A DNA stretch of 49,175 nt from Trueperaceae bacterium. Its GTDB lineage: Bacteria; Deinococcota; Deinococci; Deinococcales; Trueperaceae. This document shows, piece after piece, positions 21,475-47,482 of this stretch. Location: NCBI GenBank assembly GCA_007695125.1, contig REEJ01000171.1:1-49175 (forward strand), read 5' to 3'. Numbering within the stretch: the first letter of the stretch is position 1; each line of letters begins with the position of its first letter. Both the position numbers and the translations under genes were made by a program. Under the pieces are notes generated by a model. The model was not told where the DNA came from and searched no databases. It saw only the letters and a program-made list of their open reading frames with translations.

Positions 21475-22479
21475 TCAGCGCACAGCGCTCGCGACCGATT
21501 GCCGCTCGACCAGTTCCGGGTCGAACCGGTGCACGACCTCCCTCCGCTCGCCGTCGAGGCGTTCGAGCAACAGATCGGCGGCGGCTCGTCCCATCTCGAC
21601 CAGCGGCTGCCGGACCGTGGTCAGGGTCGGCGTCAGATAGCGCGCCAGGAAGACGTCGTCGTAGCCGATGATGGAGATGTCGTCGGGGACCGCATGCCCT
21701 GTCTCTCGCAGGGTGCGCATCGCTCCGGCCGCCATCTGATCGTTGGCGACGAAGATGGCGGTCAGGTCGGGGGCGCGCTCGAGCAGATGTGCCGCCGCCT
21801 CGGCTCCCCCCTCTTCGAGGAAGGTGGACTCGACCACGTAGCGGTCATCGAAGGCGATCCCAGCCGCCACCAGGGCGCGGCGGTAGCCCATCAGGCGGTC
21901 ACGGGCGTCGGCGTAGGAGAGCGGTCCGGCGATGTGCCCGATGTGGCGGTGACCGTGGCGCAGCAAGTGCTCCGTCGCCAGCGAGCCACCGAGTTCGTTG
22001 TCCAAGACGACGCATGACGAGCCGATCTCGGCGACGCTTCGACCGAACACGACGACGGGCGTGTCGCCGTCTCGTGCCAACTCGATGAGCGCTTCGTCGT
22101 CGAGGGCGTCGGACTGGACGATCAGGCCATCGCAGCGGCGTTCGAGCAGGAAGTCGACGGAGGCTCGCTCGAGCGCTGCGGTGGCGTAACCGCTCGACAC
22201 CATCATGTGGATGCCCTCGGCCCGCACGACCTGTTCGACGCCACGGATGAAGGCGCCGAAGTAGGGGCTCGAGATCTCGTTGACGGTGACGCCGATGCCA
22301 CCGGAGCGGTTGGTGGCGAGGCCGCGCGCGAAGGCGTTGGGCTTGAAGCCGAGCGTGGCGATGGCTGCGAGGACGCGTTCACGGGTCGGGTGCGCAACCG
22401 TGGAGGCTCCGTTGAGGACGCGCGATACGGTGGCGATCGACACGCCGGCCAGCCGTGAGACTTCGCGGATCGTTGCCAT
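21475..22479 (-). CDS. LacI family transcriptional regulator
   Basis: MATIREVSRLAGVSIATVSRVLNGASTVAHPTRERVLAAIATLGFKPNAFARGL. Confidence 0.95.
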   Translation of the reverse strand: MATIREVSRLAGVSIATVSRVLNGASTVAHPTRERVLAAIATLGFKPNAFARGLATNRSGGIGVTVNEISSPYFGAFIRGVEQVVRAEGIHMMVSSGYATAALERASVDFLLERRCDGLIVQSDALDDEALIELARDGDTPVVVFGRSVAEIGSSCVVLDNELGGSLATEHLLRHGHRHIGHIAGPLSYADARDRLMGYRRALVAAGIAFDDRYVVESTFLEEGGAEAAAHLLERAPDLTAIFVANDQMAAGAMRTLRETGHAVPDDISIIGYDDVFLARYLTPTLTTVRQPLVEMGRAAADLLLERLDGERREVVHRFDPELVERQSVASAVR

Positions 22480-26874: not shown

Positions 26875-27029
26875 GCACGACACGCAAGCAGCCGCCCCGA
26901 GCATCTGCCGGGCCCGTCACGGCCTCGCGTCGAGCGTCCGTCGGCCCGTCCCAGCCATCGAGCCCGTCCCAGCCATCGCCACACGCAGCGGCCACCCACC
27001 CCTCACCGGCTCCTGGAAGGAGACCCCCC

Positions 27030-38279: not shown

Positions 38280-39965
38280 TCAGTCGCGCACGACGGCCTC
38301 CCCCACGTCCTCGAACACGTTCTCGCCCACCGCGACGCTCGCATCGCGTGCGATCTCGAGACCGACGGAACTGCCGCGCACCGTGTTGCCGCCGAAGCTA
38401 CCGCTTGCCGCCTCGTCGAACCACGCCGCGCGGTTGGCGTTGCCTTCGAACAGGTTGTCGGTCACCTCGGCCACGGCCTCACCCGCGATGACCACGCCAG
38501 CCCAACCGTTGTCGTCGAAGGTAGAACCGCTCACCTCGCCCGTCGCCGCGTCCAGGAACCCCACGCCGCTGCGTTCCTGAGCGAGTACCACCACGCCGTG
38601 CACTTGGAGCGTGCTGAACTCCGCCGCGACGAGGCCAGAACGGTTGCCGCGCACGGTCGTACCGTCGACGCTCGCCCGAGCCGACCCCAGCAGGTACAAC
38701 CCGAAGCCGCCGTGGTGCTCGATCCGACCGCCTCGAACCTCGATGACCGCGAACCCATCGGCCAGCAGCGCGTCGCCGTCGCCACCGTCGCCGATCATGA
38801 CGACATCGTCGAGCTCGGCGCTGGCCGCGTCGCCGACGTACAGGCCCCCCTCGTTCGCGGTGAACGTGCCCCCGACCACACGCACCGTGGCGCGCTCGAC
38901 TGCGTAGACGTGCGCCCACGTGCCCGTGCGCTCGATCGTCACACCCTCGAGGAGCACGCTCGCCGCGCCGACCACGTCGACCGCGCCGCCGGCGTGGTCA
39001 CGAAGGTGATCCCCGTGGAGCGCCAGGGCGGCGCCGTCGCCCACCCACACCGCGGAGACCAGCACCTCGTCCGTGTTGGCGCCGTTGTGCTCGAAGAGGC
39101 CGCCGTACGAGCGCACCGAGGCACGATCGTGCAGCGAGAGGGCGAAGCGCGGGTTGTGCGCGAAGACGACCCGGCGGAACTCGGCCTCGGCGTCGCCGCC
39201 GACGCGAACAGCATCGACGTCGAGGCCGCCGAGGCTGCCGCTCTCCTCGATGTACGTTGCCTCGAGGCTCACGCTGGCGCGTCCTCGGACCTCGAGTGCG
39301 CTCGCGACGTGCTGGCGCAACTCGCCACCGACCATCGTCAGGCTCGCCTCGCCGTCGATGTGAATCCCACCAACGTTCCTCACCACCACGACGTCGTCCA
39401 GATGCACGGTCGAGGCATCGCGCACCTCGATCGCGAACCCCTCGTGGCGACCGAAGCCACCACCGACCACGCGGACGTCGGCCGCACCCGACGCCACCAG
39501 GCCGCTGCCGTGACCGAACGGTCGCTCGGCCGAGTCGGCGTAGCCCCCGACCGCGAAGCCGACGTCGACGTGTTCGAGCGTCATCGCCGCGTCCCGGATC
39601 CACAGCACGTCGCCTGGCGCCTCGGCGTCGTACGCCAGACGGAGGCCTGTGATCCGCACCTCGGCACCCGGTTCGATCGACACGCCGAGGGGCGCGGAGC
39701 GCAGGTTCAACTGCACGGTGCCGGCCTCCTCGGCACGCAGGTCGACCTGGCCGCGCAGGACCAGGGTGTCGTCCAGGTCGTACTCGCCAGGCGCGATCGT
39801 CACGACACCGCCGTGGTCGAGTGCCTGCAGCAATGCCGCAGCGCTGTCGACGGTGACCGTCGCTCCGGGCTGAGCGAGCGAGGCGCCCGCGATCAGGAGC
39901 GCGAGCAGCAACGGACCCAAGCCGAGGGCGCCGACCCGACGACGCCGCGCCCACCAGGCGACCAT
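38280..39965 (-). CDS. Secreted right-handed parallel beta-helix protein
   Basis: Signal peptide LGPLLLALLIAGASLAQ; repetitive beta-helix repeats (e.g. VSGSTFDDNGWAGVVIAGEAVAEVTDNLFEGN). Confidence 0.88.
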   Translation of the reverse strand: MVAWWARRRRVGALGLGPLLLALLIAGASLAQPGATVTVDSAAALLQALDHGGVVTIAPGEYDLDDTLVLRGQVDLRAEEAGTVQLNLRSAPLGVSIEPGAEVRITGLRLAYDAEAPGDVLWIRDAAMTLEHVDVGFAVGGYADSAERPFGHGSGLVASGAADVRVVGGGFGRHEGFAIEVRDASTVHLDDVVVVRNVGGIHIDGEASLTMVGGELRQHVASALEVRGRASVSLEATYIEESGSLGGLDVDAVRVGGDAEAEFRRVVFAHNPRFALSLHDRASVRSYGGLFEHNGANTDEVLVSAVWVGDGAALALHGDHLRDHAGGAVDVVGAASVLLEGVTIERTGTWAHVYAVERATVRVVGGTFTANEGGLYVGDAASAELDDVVMIGDGGDGDALLADGFAVIEVRGGRIEHHGGFGLYLLGSARASVDGTTVRGNRSGLVAAEFSTLQVHGVVVLAQERSGVGFLDAATGEVSGSTFDDNGWAGVVIAGEAVAEVTDNLFEGNANRAAWFDEAASGSFGGNTVRGSSVGLEIARDASVAVGENVFEDVGEAVVRD

Positions 39966-41617
39966 CAGCGCGCCTCCGTGACGTTCTGGCCGTTGTCGGA
40001 GAACACGTTGTCCACGCCCTGGGCCGCACCCTGGTCCTCCAGGCGCACACCGGACTCGGAGCCCGCGATCGTGTTCCCCTCCAACGTTCCGGTGGCGGCG
40101 TCGACGATCAGCACGCCGACCTGACCGTTGCCGAGAAGCCGGTTGTCCTCGAGGTGCCCGCCCGACTCGTCCGCCAAGGCCACCCCGTTGCGTCCGTTGC
40201 CCGTGATCTCGTTGCGCATGAACACGGCGCGGGTGCCACCCAGGAGCACGGCGCCGGAGTGCAGGTTGTCGAAGACCCGGTTCTCCGTGACGAAGGCGGT
40301 GGCGGCACCGGTCATCCACAGCCCCATCTCGTTGCCCGTGATGGTGTTGTCGGTCAGGTCGGCGCTCGCGTCGCCGTCGATCCACACGCCCCTCGCCACG
40401 TGACCGGCGATGGTGTTGCCGACGATGTCGACGCTGGCCGCCTCGCCGATGGTCACGCCCGACGACGCGCCGTCGAGCAGCTCGGAGCCGTGGATGGCCG
40501 CCCGGGCGTCGCCGTGGACGAACACCGACCCCTCGTTGCCGAGGAAGCGGCTGCCCTGGATCACCAAGGTGCCCTGATCGCTGACCCGGGTGTGGCCGAA
40601 CGCCCCGTTCGCCGCGACGGTCGAGTCCTCGATCACCAGCGTGCCCGCCTGCCGCACTTCGAACGCCCCGCCGAGACTGCCGCGCACCGTGGCACGTTGC
40701 ACGGCCACGCGCGCCTCGTCCATGACGACCACGGCTGCCCAGCGCCGGCTCCCGTCCTCGAGCCCGTCACCGTTGGCCTCGAGCAACGTACCGTCGATGA
40801 CCACCTCGGCGGTGCCGCTGGCGGCGATGGCGGACACCGGCGAGTCGCGCACGATCCCGCCCCGGAAGGTCGCTCGCGCCTGGTCCACCACCCGGATGGC
40901 TTCGAGCCACATCCCGCGCTCGACGTCGAGGACGCCGTTGCCTCCGAAGCCGCTATCCGTGAGCGTCGCCTGCGCGTCGTCCAGGAGGACGATCGCCTGC
41001 GCGAACTGGTCGAGGAAGGTGCTGCCACGGACGTCGATCCGAGCCTCCTGGACCGCGATGATCCCGCGGTGGTTGTCACCCACCTGCGACGTGGCGAGGC
41101 GCAGCGCACTCGTCCCGAGCACCTCGATCGCCGCGTTCTCGTTTCGGATGATCCGCGTGTCCTCGACGTCGGCCTCGGCCCTGCCCTGCAGCACGAGGGC
41201 CGTGCCGTGCCCGGCCGGGCGCCACGGATCCGCTGGCTCGACGGTGCCCGCCTTGGCGAGCCCGAGGTCGACGCCGCGCAGCACGACGTGGCCGTTACGC
41301 ACCACCACGAGGTCACCGGCCGAGTCGCCGGCCCACACGAGGCGCAGCCCCTCCAGATGCAGCCGGGCTCCTTCACCGACGCGGACGGCGATCGGGCCGC
41401 CGGACGCCTCGATGGTCACGTCGTCGGGGCCGCTCCCGACGATCGACAGCGCGCCGGCGACGTCGAGCGAACCGTCGAGCGCGTACGTGCCAGGCGCGAT
41501 TCGGTACTCGCCGCCGCTCGCGAAGGCGGCCACCAGGTCGTCGACGCTCTCGATCGCCGTCTGGGCGAAGGCGGCGCACAGGAGCAGCGCCAGCACCAGG
41601 GTGCCGAGGCGCCTCAC
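39965..41617 (-). CDS. Secreted right-handed parallel beta-helix protein (paralogue)
   Basis: GTG start overlaps the upstream stop; repeats such as NTITGNEMGLWMTGAATAFVTENRVFDNLHSGAVLLGGTRAVFMRNEITGNGRNGVAL. Confidence 0.88.
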   Translation of the reverse strand: MRRLGTLVLALLLCAAFAQTAIESVDDLVAAFASGGEYRIAPGTYALDGSLDVAGALSIVGSGPDDVTIEASGGPIAVRVGEGARLHLEGLRLVWAGDSAGDLVVVRNGHVVLRGVDLGLAKAGTVEPADPWRPAGHGTALVLQGRAEADVEDTRIIRNENAAIEVLGTSALRLATSQVGDNHRGIIAVQEARIDVRGSTFLDQFAQAIVLLDDAQATLTDSGFGGNGVLDVERGMWLEAIRVVDQARATFRGGIVRDSPVSAIAASGTAEVVIDGTLLEANGDGLEDGSRRWAAVVVMDEARVAVQRATVRGSLGGAFEVRQAGTLVIEDSTVAANGAFGHTRVSDQGTLVIQGSRFLGNEGSVFVHGDARAAIHGSELLDGASSGVTIGEAASVDIVGNTIAGHVARGVWIDGDASADLTDNTITGNEMGLWMTGAATAFVTENRVFDNLHSGAVLLGGTRAVFMRNEITGNGRNGVALADESGGHLEDNRLLGNGQVGVLIVDAATGTLEGNTIAGSESGVRLEDQGAAQGVDNVFSDNGQNVTEAR

Positions 41618-42930
41618 GGCGCCACGGGCCCGTAGGTGCCGTCGAAGCCGATCGCGACCGCGAAAGCGTCGGCGAGCGACATACGCGGGAGCCACACGTC
41701 GGAGTCGACGTCGAGGTCGGTGCCCTGCAGGTTCCAGCCGAAGAAGCCGCGAACGGTGTTGGCCCACGACTCGACGACTTCGACCTCGGCCTCCGCGGCG
41801 TTGCGGTCGATCAGCGTACGCGCGCCGTAGAGCGCGCCCCACGCCGGGCTGATGGCGTACTCGAGATCGAAGCGGGTGTTGCCCCAAGCGTCGTACACCT
41901 CGAGCGCCCAGTCGGCGATGTTGTCCAGGTCGATGATCGTGTCGAACTCTTGGTAGTCGCCCTGCGCGTTGGCCACGAAGACGTTATCGAGCAGCACCAG
42001 GTCGCTCGCCCGGCGGGCGTTGTCGATCCCGAAGGCGTCGTTGAAGGCGAGGATGTTGTTGGCGACCTCGACCGTGATGCGTCCCTCGAGCAGGATCGCC
42101 GAGCCGCCGAAGCTGCCGAAGGGGCTGTGCTTCTGCGTGAAGAGCGCGGCGTTGTGCGCGAAGCGGTAGCGCGGGAAGTCGTTCGGGTCGTCGGCCGCGA
42201 TGGCGGTGGCGAGGTGGAAGCCGGCGCCGGTGTTGTTGACCGCGACGGAGTGCTCGATGGTCACGTCGGCCGCGGCGCCAGGGTAGAAGGCGAACGCGCC
42301 CTGCGTGGGGGCGGTGTTGGTGACGATCACATGCCGCACGACGATGGTGCTGTCGACGCCGGTGCGGATCACGAGGCCCCCCGACTCCGGGGTCGGCGTG
42401 TGCTGCGGCGTGCCCTGGCGGATGATCCGGCTCCCCTCGTCGTCGGGGTAGTAGTTGCGCGGACCGTGGTCGATGACCACGCCGTCGACGACCACCGTGT
42501 GCACGGTGTCCTCGCCGCGCGCCTGCATGAGCCTGGTCGCGAACCCACTCGTATCGATCATGAGACGCGGGTCGGTGGTGAAGTTCTGGGCGTTGTGCAC
42601 ACCGGTGAGCACCGTCACGTGCGCGCCCCACGGATCGCGGCTGGCGAAGTCGGGGGCGAAGCCGCCGTAGATCTCCACCGGGACGGTGATGTGATCGGCG
42701 CCGTTGTCGGCGCGCCCAGTGAAGGTGCCGCCGGTGATGCACACCACGTCGCCGGGCTCGAGGTCGGTGACGATGTTGCCGAGGTCGCGCGCCGGGCGCT
42801 CGAGGCTGGCGACGCGGCCACTCCCCTGCTCGCTCACGTACTTCGTGCAGGCTTGCGCCAGCGCGGGTGCGCCGGCGAGCAGCAGCGTCGCGAGCGCGAG
42901 TGCGAGGCGGCGGACGGTGGGGTGGTGCAT
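41614..42930 (-). CDS. Secreted parallel beta-helix-like protein
   Basis: Signal peptide LALALATLLLAGAPALAQA; NIVTDLEPGDVVCITGGTFTG, IYGGFAPDFASRDPWG, VAVNNTGAGFHLATA. Confidence 0.85.
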   Translation of the reverse strand: MHHPTVRRLALALATLLLAGAPALAQACTKYVSEQGSGRVASLERPARDLGNIVTDLEPGDVVCITGGTFTGRADNGADHITVPVEIYGGFAPDFASRDPWGAHVTVLTGVHNAQNFTTDPRLMIDTSGFATRLMQARGEDTVHTVVVDGVVIDHGPRNYYPDDEGSRIIRQGTPQHTPTPESGGLVIRTGVDSTIVVRHVIVTNTAPTQGAFAFYPGAAADVTIEHSVAVNNTGAGFHLATAIAADDPNDFPRYRFAHNAALFTQKHSPFGSFGGSAILLEGRITVEVANNILAFNDAFGIDNARRASDLVLLDNVFVANAQGDYQEFDTIIDLDNIADWALEVYDAWGNTRFDLEYAISPAWGALYGARTLIDRNAAEAEVEVVESWANTVRGFFGWNLQGTDLDVDSDVWLPRMSLADAFAVAIGFDGTYGPVAP

Positions 42931-42969: not shown

Positions 42970-43155
42970 TCAGGAGCGGGTGTCGTCGCACGCCGCGTCG
43001 GCGTGCACCGCCTCGTCGACGAACGCCCAGGCGGCCACCCACGTCTCGAACTCGAGCACCTCGCGCGTGCGCAGGTCCTGCACGTGCACGCGCTGGGTAC
43101 CGTTCGACTGGGTGAACCGGATCAGGTAGCTGCCGACGAGCCGCTCCTTGGCCAT
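42970..43155 (-). CDS. 61-aa small protein, hypothetical
   Basis: MAKERLVGSYLIRFTQSNGTQRVHVQDLRTREVLEFETWVAAWAFVDEAVHADAACDDTRS; precisely positioned behind a predicted leaderless promoter. Confidence 0.7.
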   Translation of the reverse strand: MAKERLVGSYLIRFTQSNGTQRVHVQDLRTREVLEFETWVAAWAFVDEAVHADAACDDTRS

Positions 43156-43162
43156 GCGGGAC

Positions 43163-43205
43163 AGGCTAGGAGGGTGCCGTTTCAGTGCCGTTTCGGTGCC
43201 GCGGC
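43163..43205 (-). promoter_or_regulatory. SARP-type promoter (heptamer repeats plus -10) for the 61-aa gene
   Basis: Minus strand: GCCGCGG-CACC-GAAACGG-CACT-GAAACGG-CACCCTCC-TAGCCT-GTCCCGC-ATG; 11-bp period, 8-bp gap to -10. Confidence 0.75.
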
Positions 43206-43230: not shown

Positions 43231-46185
43231 TCAGCTCGCGAGCAGGAGACGCTCGACGACGGGCGCGAGGCGCTCGGGATCCGCCGGCGGTTCGTGATCG
43301 GCGTCGGGCCGCAGTGCCGCGGCCCGGTCGCGCAGGCTCGGGGGCGTGACCGGGTGACGCAGTACGGCATCGAGCACGGCGGTCGCCAGCTCGCACCGAC
43401 CGGTGGCATCGAGCGCGCCGGCGTACGCCACCAGCACCTGGAGGAGCCGCGGCAGCGCGGCAGCGTCACGGGCGATGCGCAGCGCGGGGAGGTAGTGCGC
43501 GTCTGCGCGCTCGGGAACTCCGCGGCGGACCTGCAGGTCGCCGAGGTTCTTGAGCGTGACGATCTGGCCGAGCGTGTCTCCGACCGCCTCCTTGATGGCC
43601 AGACTCTCGCGGCCCATCGCCTCCGCCTCGTCGAGGCGTCCGAGGGTGCCGTAGAGCACCAGCAGGTTGTTCTTCACCGACGAGACGCCGCGCGGGTAGG
43701 CCAGACGCCCGTACACCTCGAGGCTCCGTTCGTAGCGGCGCGCCGCCTCCTGCGCGTCGCCGCGCGCGTCGGCGATGTAGCCGAGGTTGTTCAGCGCGGT
43801 GGCGCGCGACAGCTCGTCGCCGACCCGCTCGAAGAGCGTCACGCAGCGGAGGAAGCGCGCCTCCGCCGCATCGAACCGCTCTTGCATCGCCTCCATGCTG
43901 CCGAGCGAGTTGAGCACGTTGGCGAGCTCGGCCTCGTCGCCACTCGCCTCGAACGCGGCGACGGCGCGCTCGTAGACCGCGTCCGCCTCGTCGAACGCTC
44001 CTTGTAGCTGCAGCACGTCGCCGAGACAGCGCTGGGCGCGCCCGGCCAACGTGTCGTCGCCGATCCTCCCAGCACGCTCCGCAGCTGACGCTGCGAAGCC
44101 GCGGGCCTCGGCGAGCTCGCCACGCTCCCGGGCGGTCGTCGCGGCCGCCACCTCCACCGTGGTGGCGAGCGCCTGCGCGAACCTCCCGTCGACCACGCCC
44201 ACGCGCTCGAGCGATGCGCGGCACAGCTCACCACCGCGGCGGTAGTGCCCGAGCAGGTCGTAGTGGTCGAACAGCGGCTTGGCGACCTGCAGCGCACGCT
44301 CGAACGCGTGGGTGTCGAGGAGGCGCAGCCACGCGCGCTCGAGGTTGGCGAGGTCGTCGCCGAGCGCGACGAGCGCCTCGCTCGCACCGGTGGCGGGGTG
44401 CTCGGCGACGGCCGCGAGTCGCTCCGTGTAGTGCTCGGCGTGCGCGTCGAGCGCAGCGGCCTCGAGCTCGGGGTCGTCTGCCAGCGCCTCGGCCGCGTAC
44501 TGCGCAACCAGGGCGTGGCTGGCGAAGCGGTCGGGCCCGAGCCGCTGGACGAGCGACTGGTTCAGCAGGCTGAGCAGGAGCGCGCGCGGCGCCCCACTGA
44601 CCGCAGCCGCGGCCGCGAGCGTGCCGCCGCCCACGAGGACGGAGAGGCGGGCGAGCGCCGCGCGCTTGGCGGTGCTGAGGTCGGCCCAGGTCCGCTCGAG
44701 CACCGAACGCATGCTGCGGTGACGCTCGGGGACGTCCATGAGGTCGGTCTCGAGCAGGTGGTACCCGGTCTCGAGCTCGTCCGCGACGGTCGCGAGCGGC
44801 ATCGCCCGGACCCACGTCGCGGCGAGCTCCAGCGCCAAGGGGAGCCCCTGCACCGCGCTCGCGATGCGCGCAGCGGCCGCGAGCTCACCGTCGCCGACCT
44901 GCAGGCGCGGCTCGACGCGGCGCGCCGCACCGAGCAGCAGCGTGACCGCGTCGCTGCGACCGCCGGTTTCGTCGGCATCGGTCCGCAGGCCTGCGAGGTC
45001 GAGCACCACCTCACTCTGGAGCGCCAGGCGCCGGCGCGAGGTGACGACCGCCCGCGCCGCCCCGTCACCGGCGAGCCACGCCCCGAGGCGTGCGGCGTGT
45101 TCGGCGAGGGGCTCGAACTCGTCGAGGACCAGGAGCACGTCGAGCTCGGCCAGGACCTCCCGCAACCGCCGGTCGGCCGCTTCGCTGCCGCCCTCGACCT
45201 CGATGCCGAGCGCCTCGGCGACCCGCTCGAGGAGACCGTCGCCGTCACGCACGGCAGCGAGCGGTACGAAGACCGCCCCGGCGCCATGACGTGCGGCGCG
45301 GCGTCGAGCGAACTCGAGCGCCAGGCGCGTCTTGCCGATCCCACCGAGGCCGAGGATGGTGACGAGTCGCACGCCTTCGGCGTCGATCAGCGCCTCGAGC
45401 TGAGCCAGCTCCTGCGCACGGCCGACGAAGCGCGTGGCCGGCTCCGGGAGCATCGGCCGTTGCGGCTCTGGGGCCGGAGGCTGCTCGCCGACGGCAGGCT
45501 GTGGCTCCAGCGCCGCGCGGGTCGCGGCCGTCGGGGTCGTACCGACCTCGCGCTCGAGGAGGTCGCTGAACGCGTCGAAGCGGCGCTGCGCCTCGGTCGC
45601 GCGCCCAGAGCGTACGAGCGTCACCAGGAGGTGCTCCATCGCCCGCTCGTCCAGGTCGTCGATCGCCACGAGCCGTTCGAGAGCGTCGATCGCGTCCGTC
45701 CAGGCAGCCTCTGCGAGGCGCGCCTCCGCCAGGCGCTCGAGCGCCCCTCGATATCGGGACTGGAGCTCGAGCCGCTCGAGCTCGAGCCAGGTGTCGAAGG
45801 TCGGACGACCGCGCAGCGCGTACCCGGCGAGGAGCGGTCCCCGGTACGAACGCACGGCGGCGTCCAGGTCGTCCGCGGCGAGCGCAGCGCGGAACGTGGC
45901 GACGTCGTGACCGACGTCGAAGCGCACGCGGTGGGGTTCGACCTGCAGCCCAGCGGCCCACGGCAGCTGCTGCGCACGGTGCAGCTGCAGTCGGAGATAC
46001 TGCAGAGCCTGCGACTCGGCCTCGTCGGGTCGATACAGGTAGGCGAGGTCGGTGCGCGGCACCCAGCCCTCGGCGAGCGCGAGATACGCCAGGAGCGACG
46101 CGGGTGCGTTCACCGGGAGTGTGGACTCGACGCCAGCGTGCACGACCGCTGGGCTGCCGAACAGGGTGAGGCGCACGTCGGGCAC
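43231..46185 (-). CDS. SARP-type regulator: BTAD domain - NB-ARC/AAA ATPase - TPR
   Basis: VPDVRLTLFGSPAVVHAG...AIDALERLVAIDDLDERAMEHLLVTLVRSGRATEAQRRFDAFSDLLEREVGTTPTAATRAAL (BTAD); TILGLGGIGKTRLALEFARR (Walker A), VLLVLDEFE; C-terminal TPR repeats. Leaderless GTG 46185, 5 nt after TAGACT. Confidence 0.92.
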   Translation of the reverse strand: MPDVRLTLFGSPAVVHAGVESTLPVNAPASLLAYLALAEGWVPRTDLAYLYRPDEAESQALQYLRLQLHRAQQLPWAAGLQVEPHRVRFDVGHDVATFRAALAADDLDAAVRSYRGPLLAGYALRGRPTFDTWLELERLELQSRYRGALERLAEARLAEAAWTDAIDALERLVAIDDLDERAMEHLLVTLVRSGRATEAQRRFDAFSDLLEREVGTTPTAATRAALEPQPAVGEQPPAPEPQRPMLPEPATRFVGRAQELAQLEALIDAEGVRLVTILGLGGIGKTRLALEFARRRAARHGAGAVFVPLAAVRDGDGLLERVAEALGIEVEGGSEAADRRLREVLAELDVLLVLDEFEPLAEHAARLGAWLAGDGAARAVVTSRRRLALQSEVVLDLAGLRTDADETGGRSDAVTLLLGAARRVEPRLQVGDGELAAAARIASAVQGLPLALELAATWVRAMPLATVADELETGYHLLETDLMDVPERHRSMRSVLERTWADLSTAKRAALARLSVLVGGGTLAAAAAVSGAPRALLLSLLNQSLVQRLGPDRFASHALVAQYAAEALADDPELEAAALDAHAEHYTERLAAVAEHPATGASEALVALGDDLANLERAWLRLLDTHAFERALQVAKPLFDHYDLLGHYRRGGELCRASLERVGVVDGRFAQALATTVEVAAATTARERGELAEARGFAASAAERAGRIGDDTLAGRAQRCLGDVLQLQGAFDEADAVYERAVAAFEASGDEAELANVLNSLGSMEAMQERFDAAEARFLRCVTLFERVGDELSRATALNNLGYIADARGDAQEAARRYERSLEVYGRLAYPRGVSSVKNNLLVLYGTLGRLDEAEAMGRESLAIKEAVGDTLGQIVTLKNLGDLQVRRGVPERADAHYLPALRIARDAAALPRLLQVLVAYAGALDATGRCELATAVLDAVLRHPVTPPSLRDRAAALRPDADHEPPADPERLAPVVERLLLAS

Positions 46186-46263
46186 GCGGGAGTCTACCGC
46201 CGGGGCTGAGCGCGGCTGGGGCAGCGGGCACACAGGACGCTCGGCGTCGATGCCGCCGTGCGT

Positions 46264-46310
46264 GCGCTAAGCGGGCGCTAAGCCGGCGCTAAGCGGGCGC
46301 ACCATAGCCT
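46264..46310 (+). promoter_or_regulatory. SARP-type promoter with three perfect-period 11-bp direct repeats
   Basis: GCGCTAAGCGG GCGCTAAGCCG GCGCTAAGCGG GCGCACCA TAGCCT; heptamers TAAGCGG/TAAGCCG/TAAGCGG, 8 bp before TAGCCT (46305-46310). Confidence 0.85.
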
Positions 46311-46378
46311 CGCGACCGGACGGTTGGGCAGGCCACGGCCGTGGTCGGCACCTCTCCGTATCGCCGTTGGAGGCCATG

Positions 46379-47482
46379 ATGCAGACACACTCGCTCCGCT
46401 CTCGTGCCGCCCTCGCCCCGCTGATCGCGCTCGCGCTTGCGCTGTCTGCCTGCGGTGGCCCCGCGCCCGGCGGTCCGGGTGACCCGGACCCGGACCCGGA
46501 CCCGGACCCGACCGGCGTGACGCCCGCCATCCTCTTCCTCGGTGACGACTCCGGCATCCTCCAGGTCCTGCACAGCACGTCCACCGGCATCGCCGCTCGC
46601 GCCCCGCTGGTCCTGCCCGAGGACGCCGAGCCATGCGGCAGTGCCGCGCATGACGGGCGTCTCTACGTCGGCGACTACTGGAACGAGGTCATCTATGCCT
46701 ACGACCTCGAGGCCGCGATCGGCGGCGGCGTCGTGAGCCCACTCGCGACCGCTACCCCCAACGTCTCAGGGATCGTCGAGCCATGCGGTCTCGCGTTCGA
46801 CTCGAACGGCGACCTCTGGGTCGGTGACTTCTCCTCCGGCAACCGCGTCCTCACGTTCACCGATCCAGCCACGTGGAGCGGCGACGAGAGCCCGACCCCG
46901 TCGCGCATCCTGACGATGTCGTCGGCGGGCAGCTTCCAGAGCTGGGTCGACGTGGTCGACGTCGCTTTCGACGACGATGGCAACCTCTGGGTGGTCGACG
47001 AGTGGTACGAGACGATCACACGGATCGACGACCCGACCTCGCTCCCCGCCGACGCCACCAACACGGTGCCGTCGCTGCAGATCGTCGACGTCGAGGTGCC
47101 ACCGAGCGACGGCCTGAGCTACTCGCTGTACCTGCCGAACAGCGTCGCCATCGGCCCAGACGGCATGGTCTACGTCGGCAACGACTGGAGCTCGACCAAC
47201 CTGATCACACGCTACGACGACGTCGGTCTGGTCGACACGACCGGACAGGTCGAGCTCGTGCCGGGGGCCTACATCGTCGCCCCCGCTCCGTTGACGCGAT
47301 CCTTCAGCGTCGGCTTCGACCCCGATGGTCGCCTCTGGGTCGCCGACCGCGCCCGCTTGCACCGGCTCACCGGGTACACGGGCGATGGCGTGGTGAACGC
47401 CGGCAGCGGCGACTCGATCGCCCTCGCCGGCGCGACCACGTACTACGGCGGCATGACCTGGGTCGCCTGGTCCGGCGACTGA
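46379..47482 (+). CDS. Lipoprotein with NHL/SMP30-like beta-propeller repeats
   Basis: Lipobox LALSACGG; Asp-Pro linker; CGLAFDSNGDLWVGDF, VAFDDDGNLWVVDE, VAIGPDGMVYVGND, VGFDPDGRLWVADR repeats; GGAGG before ATG. Confidence 0.88.
   Translation: MQTHSLRSRAALAPLIALALALSACGGPAPGGPGDPDPDPDPDPTGVTPAILFLGDDSGILQVLHSTSTGIAARAPLVLPEDAEPCGSAAHDGRLYVGDYWNEVIYAYDLEAAIGGGVVSPLATATPNVSGIVEPCGLAFDSNGDLWVGDFSSGNRVLTFTDPATWSGDESPTPSRILTMSSAGSFQSWVDVVDVAFDDDGNLWVVDEWYETITRIDDPTSLPADATNTVPSLQIVDVEVPPSDGLSYSLYLPNSVAIGPDGMVYVGNDWSSTNLITRYDDVGLVDTTGQVELVPGAYIVAPAPLTRSFSVGFDPDGRLWVADRARLHRLTGYTGDGVVNAGSGDSIALAGATTYYGGMTWVAWSGD

Follow-up and report, generated by a model that had tools for sequence, protein, structure and literature searches.

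Positions 46268–46310 of the 49,175-nt Trueperaceae stretch analyzed here (the window) are best explained as an operator-promoter of the kind used by SARP activators, which would be controlled in trans by a regulator encoded on contig C323, while the divergent SARP of the window would act on a TGAAACG repeat of its own. To this explanation as a whole, which is drawn from sequence comparison, we assign a probability of roughly 0.77.

Direct reading of the forward strand identifies GCGCTAAGCSG three times in tandem with an 11-bp period (46264–46296), and Tandem Repeats Finder (TRF) independently reports an array at 46260–46300 (period 11, 3.7 copies, 90% match). The proximal heptamer is separated by the 8-bp spacer GCGCACCA (46297–46304) from a TAGCCT box that lacks a good −35 element. 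The parsing proposed in the sequence-only reading, i.e. TAAGCSG heptamers at an 11-bp period ending 8 bp before TAGCCT, was exact both by eye and by pattern search: TAAGCSG-N4-TAAGCSG has only two exact, overlapping matches in the window, both at 46268–46296, and the five further matches carry three mismatches each, a number predicted by shuffles. Heptamer direct repeats at an 11-bp period and an 8-bp distance from the 3′ repeat to the box are features of described SARP operators, where the direct repeats are spaced at 11 or 22 bp and 8 bp separate the last of them from the −10 element (PMC10936776). The downstream gene does encode the beta-propeller lipoprotein anticipated in that reading, as its lipobox and NHL match confirm (Table 1); its start is ATG 46376 or 46379, 66–69 bp after the −10 box, with a GGAGG Shine-Dalgarno sequence at 46369–46373. 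Just after the lipobox, five perfect GACCCG units (46481–46510) encode a DP-rich linker.

SARP operators have been described in the antibiotic clusters of actinomycetes. The window site is similar to the operators of the Streptomyces SARP-LAL regulators PimR, SanG, and PolR in placing three directly repeated heptamers, separated by 4-nt spacers, in front of a promoter, the arrangement of the main PimR operator (PMC5930380), and in having a large, ATPase-linked SARP as regulator. It differs from PimR, which has CGGCAAG heptamers, in its TAAGCSG heptamers, its occurrence in Deinococcota, and its association with exported proteins rather than antibiotic clusters, and from all three in that the probable regulator carries its SARP domain at the C-terminus. 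The afs box of Streptomyces coelicolor AfsR likewise has 11-bp direct repeats, an 8-bp distance between its 3′ repeat and the −10 element, and a poor −35 element, although the repeat sequence is different and, in the proposed regulator of the TAAGC set, the STAND ATPase precedes the SARP domain; the ODB+BTA region of AfsR is homologous to both candidate regulators considered below. TANNNT directly before ORFs is a validated leaderless −10 motif in Deinococcus-Thermus (PMC12340547), and the −10 box here is of this type, with leaderless starts at the related sites 43163, C103, and C81; in contrast to leaderless promoters, an activator operator precedes the box, and the lipoprotein mRNA would have a leader of ~60 nt with a Shine-Dalgarno sequence. 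No SARP/BTAD operators, or work on them, in Deinococcota were found in the literature searched, the coverage of which leaves out most subscription papers.

Table 1. Features of the window, and the TAAGC sites of this genome and its relatives with the genes that follow them
Feature	Location	Strand	Basis and remarks
Distal heptamer TAAGCGG	46268–46274	+	Read directly; repeat unit GCGCTAAGCGG, 46264–46274
Middle heptamer TAAGCCG	46279–46285	+	Read directly
Proximal heptamer TAAGCGG	46290–46296	+	Read directly; same geometry at six more promoters in the genome
−10 element TAGCCT (TANNNT)	46305–46310	+	Position conserved in all sites
Target lipoprotein, NHL beta-propeller	46376–47482	+	ORF; lipobox LSAC; Pfam NHL, 1e-12
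SARP-NB-ARC-TPR regulator	43231–46185	−	Pfam BTAD (E = 1.6e-16), NB-ARC/AAA, TPR
Probable −10 TAGACT of SARP gene	46191–46196	−	Inferred from sequence; 5 nt before GTG 46185; leaderless
Predicted cognate site of window SARP (probable), 11-bp direct repeat CGAAACG-N4-TGAAACG	43178–43195	−	Pattern search and conservation
−10 TAGCCT of second promoter	43163–43168	−	7 nt to ATG; leaderless
61-aa protein (MAKERLVGSY...)	42970–43155	−	~60–70 aa family following SARP genes
Exported right-handed beta-helix protein	41614–42930	−	Pfam Beta_helix, 2.2e-4 (weak); downstream of 61-aa ORF
Site target: NHL lipoproteins	C281, C167
Site target: FG-GAP lipoprotein	C8
Site target: Big_2/SBBP lipoprotein	C81
Site target: family 5 solute-binding lipoprotein	C322
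Site target: exported-protein operon	C103
Site target: 163-aa ORF	C323
Relative site	G006:C279		Before orthologue of C323 ORF
Relative site	G004:C90		Before C103 operon gene, 38% identity
Relative site	G006:C31		Before C103 operon gene, 47%
Relative site	G013:C53		Before orthologue of C322 binding protein (SBP)

Across the genome, CTAAKC-N5-CTAAKC-N10-TANNNT has seven matches at up to two mismatches, each with 0 or 1, and the reversed-pattern control has none over the whole genome at the same threshold (genome-wide statements here refer to pattern searches and sampled regions). The proximal heptamer lies 8 bp from the −10 box at all seven sites, and all seven precede ORFs, six of which encode exported proteins or lipoproteins; the gene calls come from a simple codon-usage caller, with signal peptides assigned by eye or by a crude rule. 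Among relatives, clear GCTAAGC sites occur in three genomes (G004, G006, and G013), each in front of a gene that is orthologous to a target of this genome or belongs to the same family (Table 1), and TTAAGC versions in other genera (G019, G021, G022, and G025) precede related exported proteins, most of which are detectably similar to the C103 operon proteins or their G006 homologue. Orthologous sites of this kind are non-independent observations. The earlier suggestion of a SARP/BTAD operator architecture outside Actinobacteria is supported in Trueperaceae by the seven matches versus none, the six of seven exported targets, and the sites at relatives' orthologous targets, and the window site appears to belong to a conserved promoter set. 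At the relatives' homologues of the window lipoprotein (33–38%; G006, G014, G020, and G021) no TAAGC site was seen, which implies that this particular target is lineage-specific, although such absences are soft since the MAGs are incomplete (72–91% in the genus). The conservation upstream of orthologous lipoprotein genes on which the sequence-only reading depended was thus not seen for this lipoprotein, but the motif is conserved in front of orthologues of further regulon members.

The TAAGC repeats are probably read by a SARP-like regulator of the C323 type, encoded elsewhere in the genome, rather than by the divergent SARP. The C323 protein (contig C323, 6961–9654; 897 aa) has an N-terminal STAND-like ATPase, as in the MalT/LAL STAND regulators, and a C-terminal BTAD (791–895), the output domain being ODB+BTAD and not a LuxR helix-turn-helix as in that group. 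A family profile of its last 260 residues matches the AfsR cryo-EM chains over ODB+BTA (8hvr; columns 48–257, E = 1.4e-10), and the C-terminal profile aligns with that of the window SARP family (hhalign 99.8%, E = 6e-28). The SARP domain (residues ~690–895) is C-terminal, in contrast to its N-terminal placing in characterised SARPs. C323-type regulators are present in 12 of 39 family genomes and are inherited together with the TAAGC promoters: 11 of the 12 genomes with the family contain YTAAGC-N5-YTAAGC-N10-TANNNT, versus 3 of the 27 without it (Fisher p = 2.4e-6), the three latter genomes counting against C323 as the reader. Within genera g1 and g7 only, the motif accompanies the family in 4/4 versus 0/8 genomes (p = 0.002), and in the window's genus the family is present in the three motif-bearing genomes and absent from the four motif-less ones. 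TTAAG-core repeats also adjoin C323 orthologues in G019, G020 (two loci), G021, G025, and G036; in G019–G022 TTAAG-core sites are divergent from the orthologue and precede a small ORF, and G018 too has a divergent site there, with a diverged sequence. Two G006 contigs break off within one and the same member of the 163-aa ORF family, which makes it probable that the GCTAAGC site and the C323 orthologue of that genome are adjacent as well.

The divergent gene is, as expected from the sequence-only reading, a SARP-NB-ARC-TPR gene, confirmed by Pfam. Its longest ORF begins at 46233, but the preferred start is GTG 46185, which places ~80 bp between the start and the first repeat. An N-terminal OmpR-type DNA-binding domain precedes the BTAD (Pfam and profile), and the profile of its family (A2) matches AfsR over ODB+BTA (8hvr; columns 8–231, E = 9.7e-6). 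Most likely this SARP acts on a second 11-bp repeat, CGAAACGGCACTGAAACGG, which lies directly 3′ of its stop codon and is followed by TAGCCT. Behind direct-repeat promoters of this kind, after SARP genes, a family of ~60–70-aa small proteins is encoded (MAKERLVGSY/MPTERLLASY...); the window's 61-aa member has no match in Pfam or NCBIfam. Three consecutive exported genes on the reverse strand (38280–42930) lie downstream of the SARP module, in a synteny kept in G013, and both of those tested have right-handed beta-helix domains by Pfam. At the closest orthologue of this SARP that was identified (72%; G013, JAABRX010000107.1, locus L066/L119), the repeat and its −10 box are retained, along with the small ORF and the beta-helix gene. 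Across genera, TGVAACG repeats occupy the corresponding position, before the same small-protein family, at six more loci with SARPs of 30–42% identity (G001, G003, G007, G024, G029, and G030). The TGVAACG pattern has ~50 matches in the family versus a single match for the reversed control, and it is distributed among the genomes differently from TAAGC. At the relatives' loci, the window SARP family co-occurs with TGVAACG and not with TAAGC.

These distributions bear on the proposal, made in the sequence-only reading, that the window SARP itself (43231–46185) activates the lipoprotein gene by binding to the TAAGCSG repeats. Divergent adjacency and a geometry like that of known SARP operators favor it, and a three-copy site ~80 bp from a SARP start is the classic position for a local activator, which counts against C323 as the reader. 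Divergent placing also has precedent in the family sample, where eight repeats are divergent from SARP genes, and cross-recognition is conceivable because, aligned in −10 register, TGAAACG and CTAAGCG have A at positions 3–4 and CG at positions 6–7 in common. However, the relatives of the window SARP adjoin TGVAACG and not TAAGC; G003 and G007 have SARPs with the same downstream module but lack TAAGC promoters, which follow the C323 family instead; and the window provides the only TAAGC[GC] among the SARP-adjacent sites. Given this co-occurrence, and a downstream repeat of its own, the neighbour is an unlikely regulator, and that part of the earlier reading is unsupported. It is less probable still that the C323 regulator binds the repeats and also tunes the divergent SARP gene. 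The ~80-bp proximity would permit this, and SARP-on-regulator hierarchies such as PimR-pimM are known (PMC5930380), but the probable −10 box of the SARP gene lies ~70 bp from the repeats rather than at the 8-bp spacing, direct repeats are directional, and the junction is conserved in no tested relative (the upstream side of the 72% orthologue ends at a contig end). That the repeats arose by chance as a tandem array, or serve an unrelated activator, is very improbable: high-GC intergenic DNA can contain short tandem repeats, and TRF gives 24 other weak arrays in the window, but the exact geometry with its −10 box recurs seven times versus none in the control, and the period-11 peak described below is specific to BTAD loci.

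With C323 as the probable trans regulator, 46268–46310 would serve as the operator-promoter of the lipoprotein gene, on which protomers, each with an OmpR-type winged helix and a BTAD, would lie side by side on successive TAAGCSG heptamers along one helix face and bring RNA polymerase to the TANNNT box next to them. The STAND ATPase with its C-terminal SARP domain would act in this way on at least seven promoters, mostly of exported lipoproteins, while the window SARP would act on its own TGAAACG repeat (43163–43195), from which expression of the small leaderless ORF and of the beta-helix genes would be driven. The sequences themselves show the architecture of the repeats, the set of sites in the genome, their conservation, their co-occurrence with the C323 family, and the ODB+BTA region; binding, activation, oligomer state, regulator identity, and all regulatory links in this scheme are what we infer from them.

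The geometry extends beyond the TAAGC set. In a sample of 121 BTAD loci from 26 genomes (974 kb), searched for perfect 7-mer repeats 7–10 bp before TANNNT, 40 occurred at period 11 versus 0–7 at each other period from 7 to 22, a count that is slightly circular (fewer than 10 of the 40) since a few of the loci had been picked for the TAAGC motif; in 734 kb of control regions, period 11 is not in excess. A SARP gene lies immediately upstream of 22 of the sites, and eight are divergent from such a gene. In other Deinococcota families, TAACG, TGGAACG, and TGTGACG cores are found near BTAD genes, with a modest period-11 excess (4 versus 0–2) in a small sample. Across genera, similarity of the SARP DNA-binding domain correlates with similarity of the repeat (Mantel r = 0.35; 0 of 2000 permutations reach r).

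Other repeats and SARP genes were observed alongside these. This 3.7-Mb MAG has 19 BTAD-domain matches, and other Trueperaceae have up to 27, a large SARP expansion. Another locus of the genome (L039, 2252–5811; G000:C167) combines a SARP gene, a direct repeat of a different heptamer (TTGAGGC) with TAGCCT, a leaderless 74-aa ORF, and a lipoprotein. A control contig (L333; G000:C70) has two period-11 repeats before TANNNT, GGCTTCATGGC and CGTTTCACGTC, which may be operators of another regulator. In the window, GTGGAGG/GTTGAGG at 22400 falls within a LacI-type gene and is probably a chance repeat, and a near-two-copy perfect 18-bp tandem repeat, GCCCGTCCCAGCCATCGA, is present at 26944–26978.

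For this genome, the data define a regulon and point, as to its regulator, away from the neighbouring gene. More broadly, Deinococcota seem likely to use a large-scale SARP/direct-repeat promoter code, in which many regulators per genome would each have their own heptamer at an 11-bp period before a TANNNT box, mostly controlling small leaderless and exported proteins, and in which regulator and heptamer would evolve together. The ~27 SARP-heptamer pairs in one bacterial family constitute a natural data set for the SARP recognition code.
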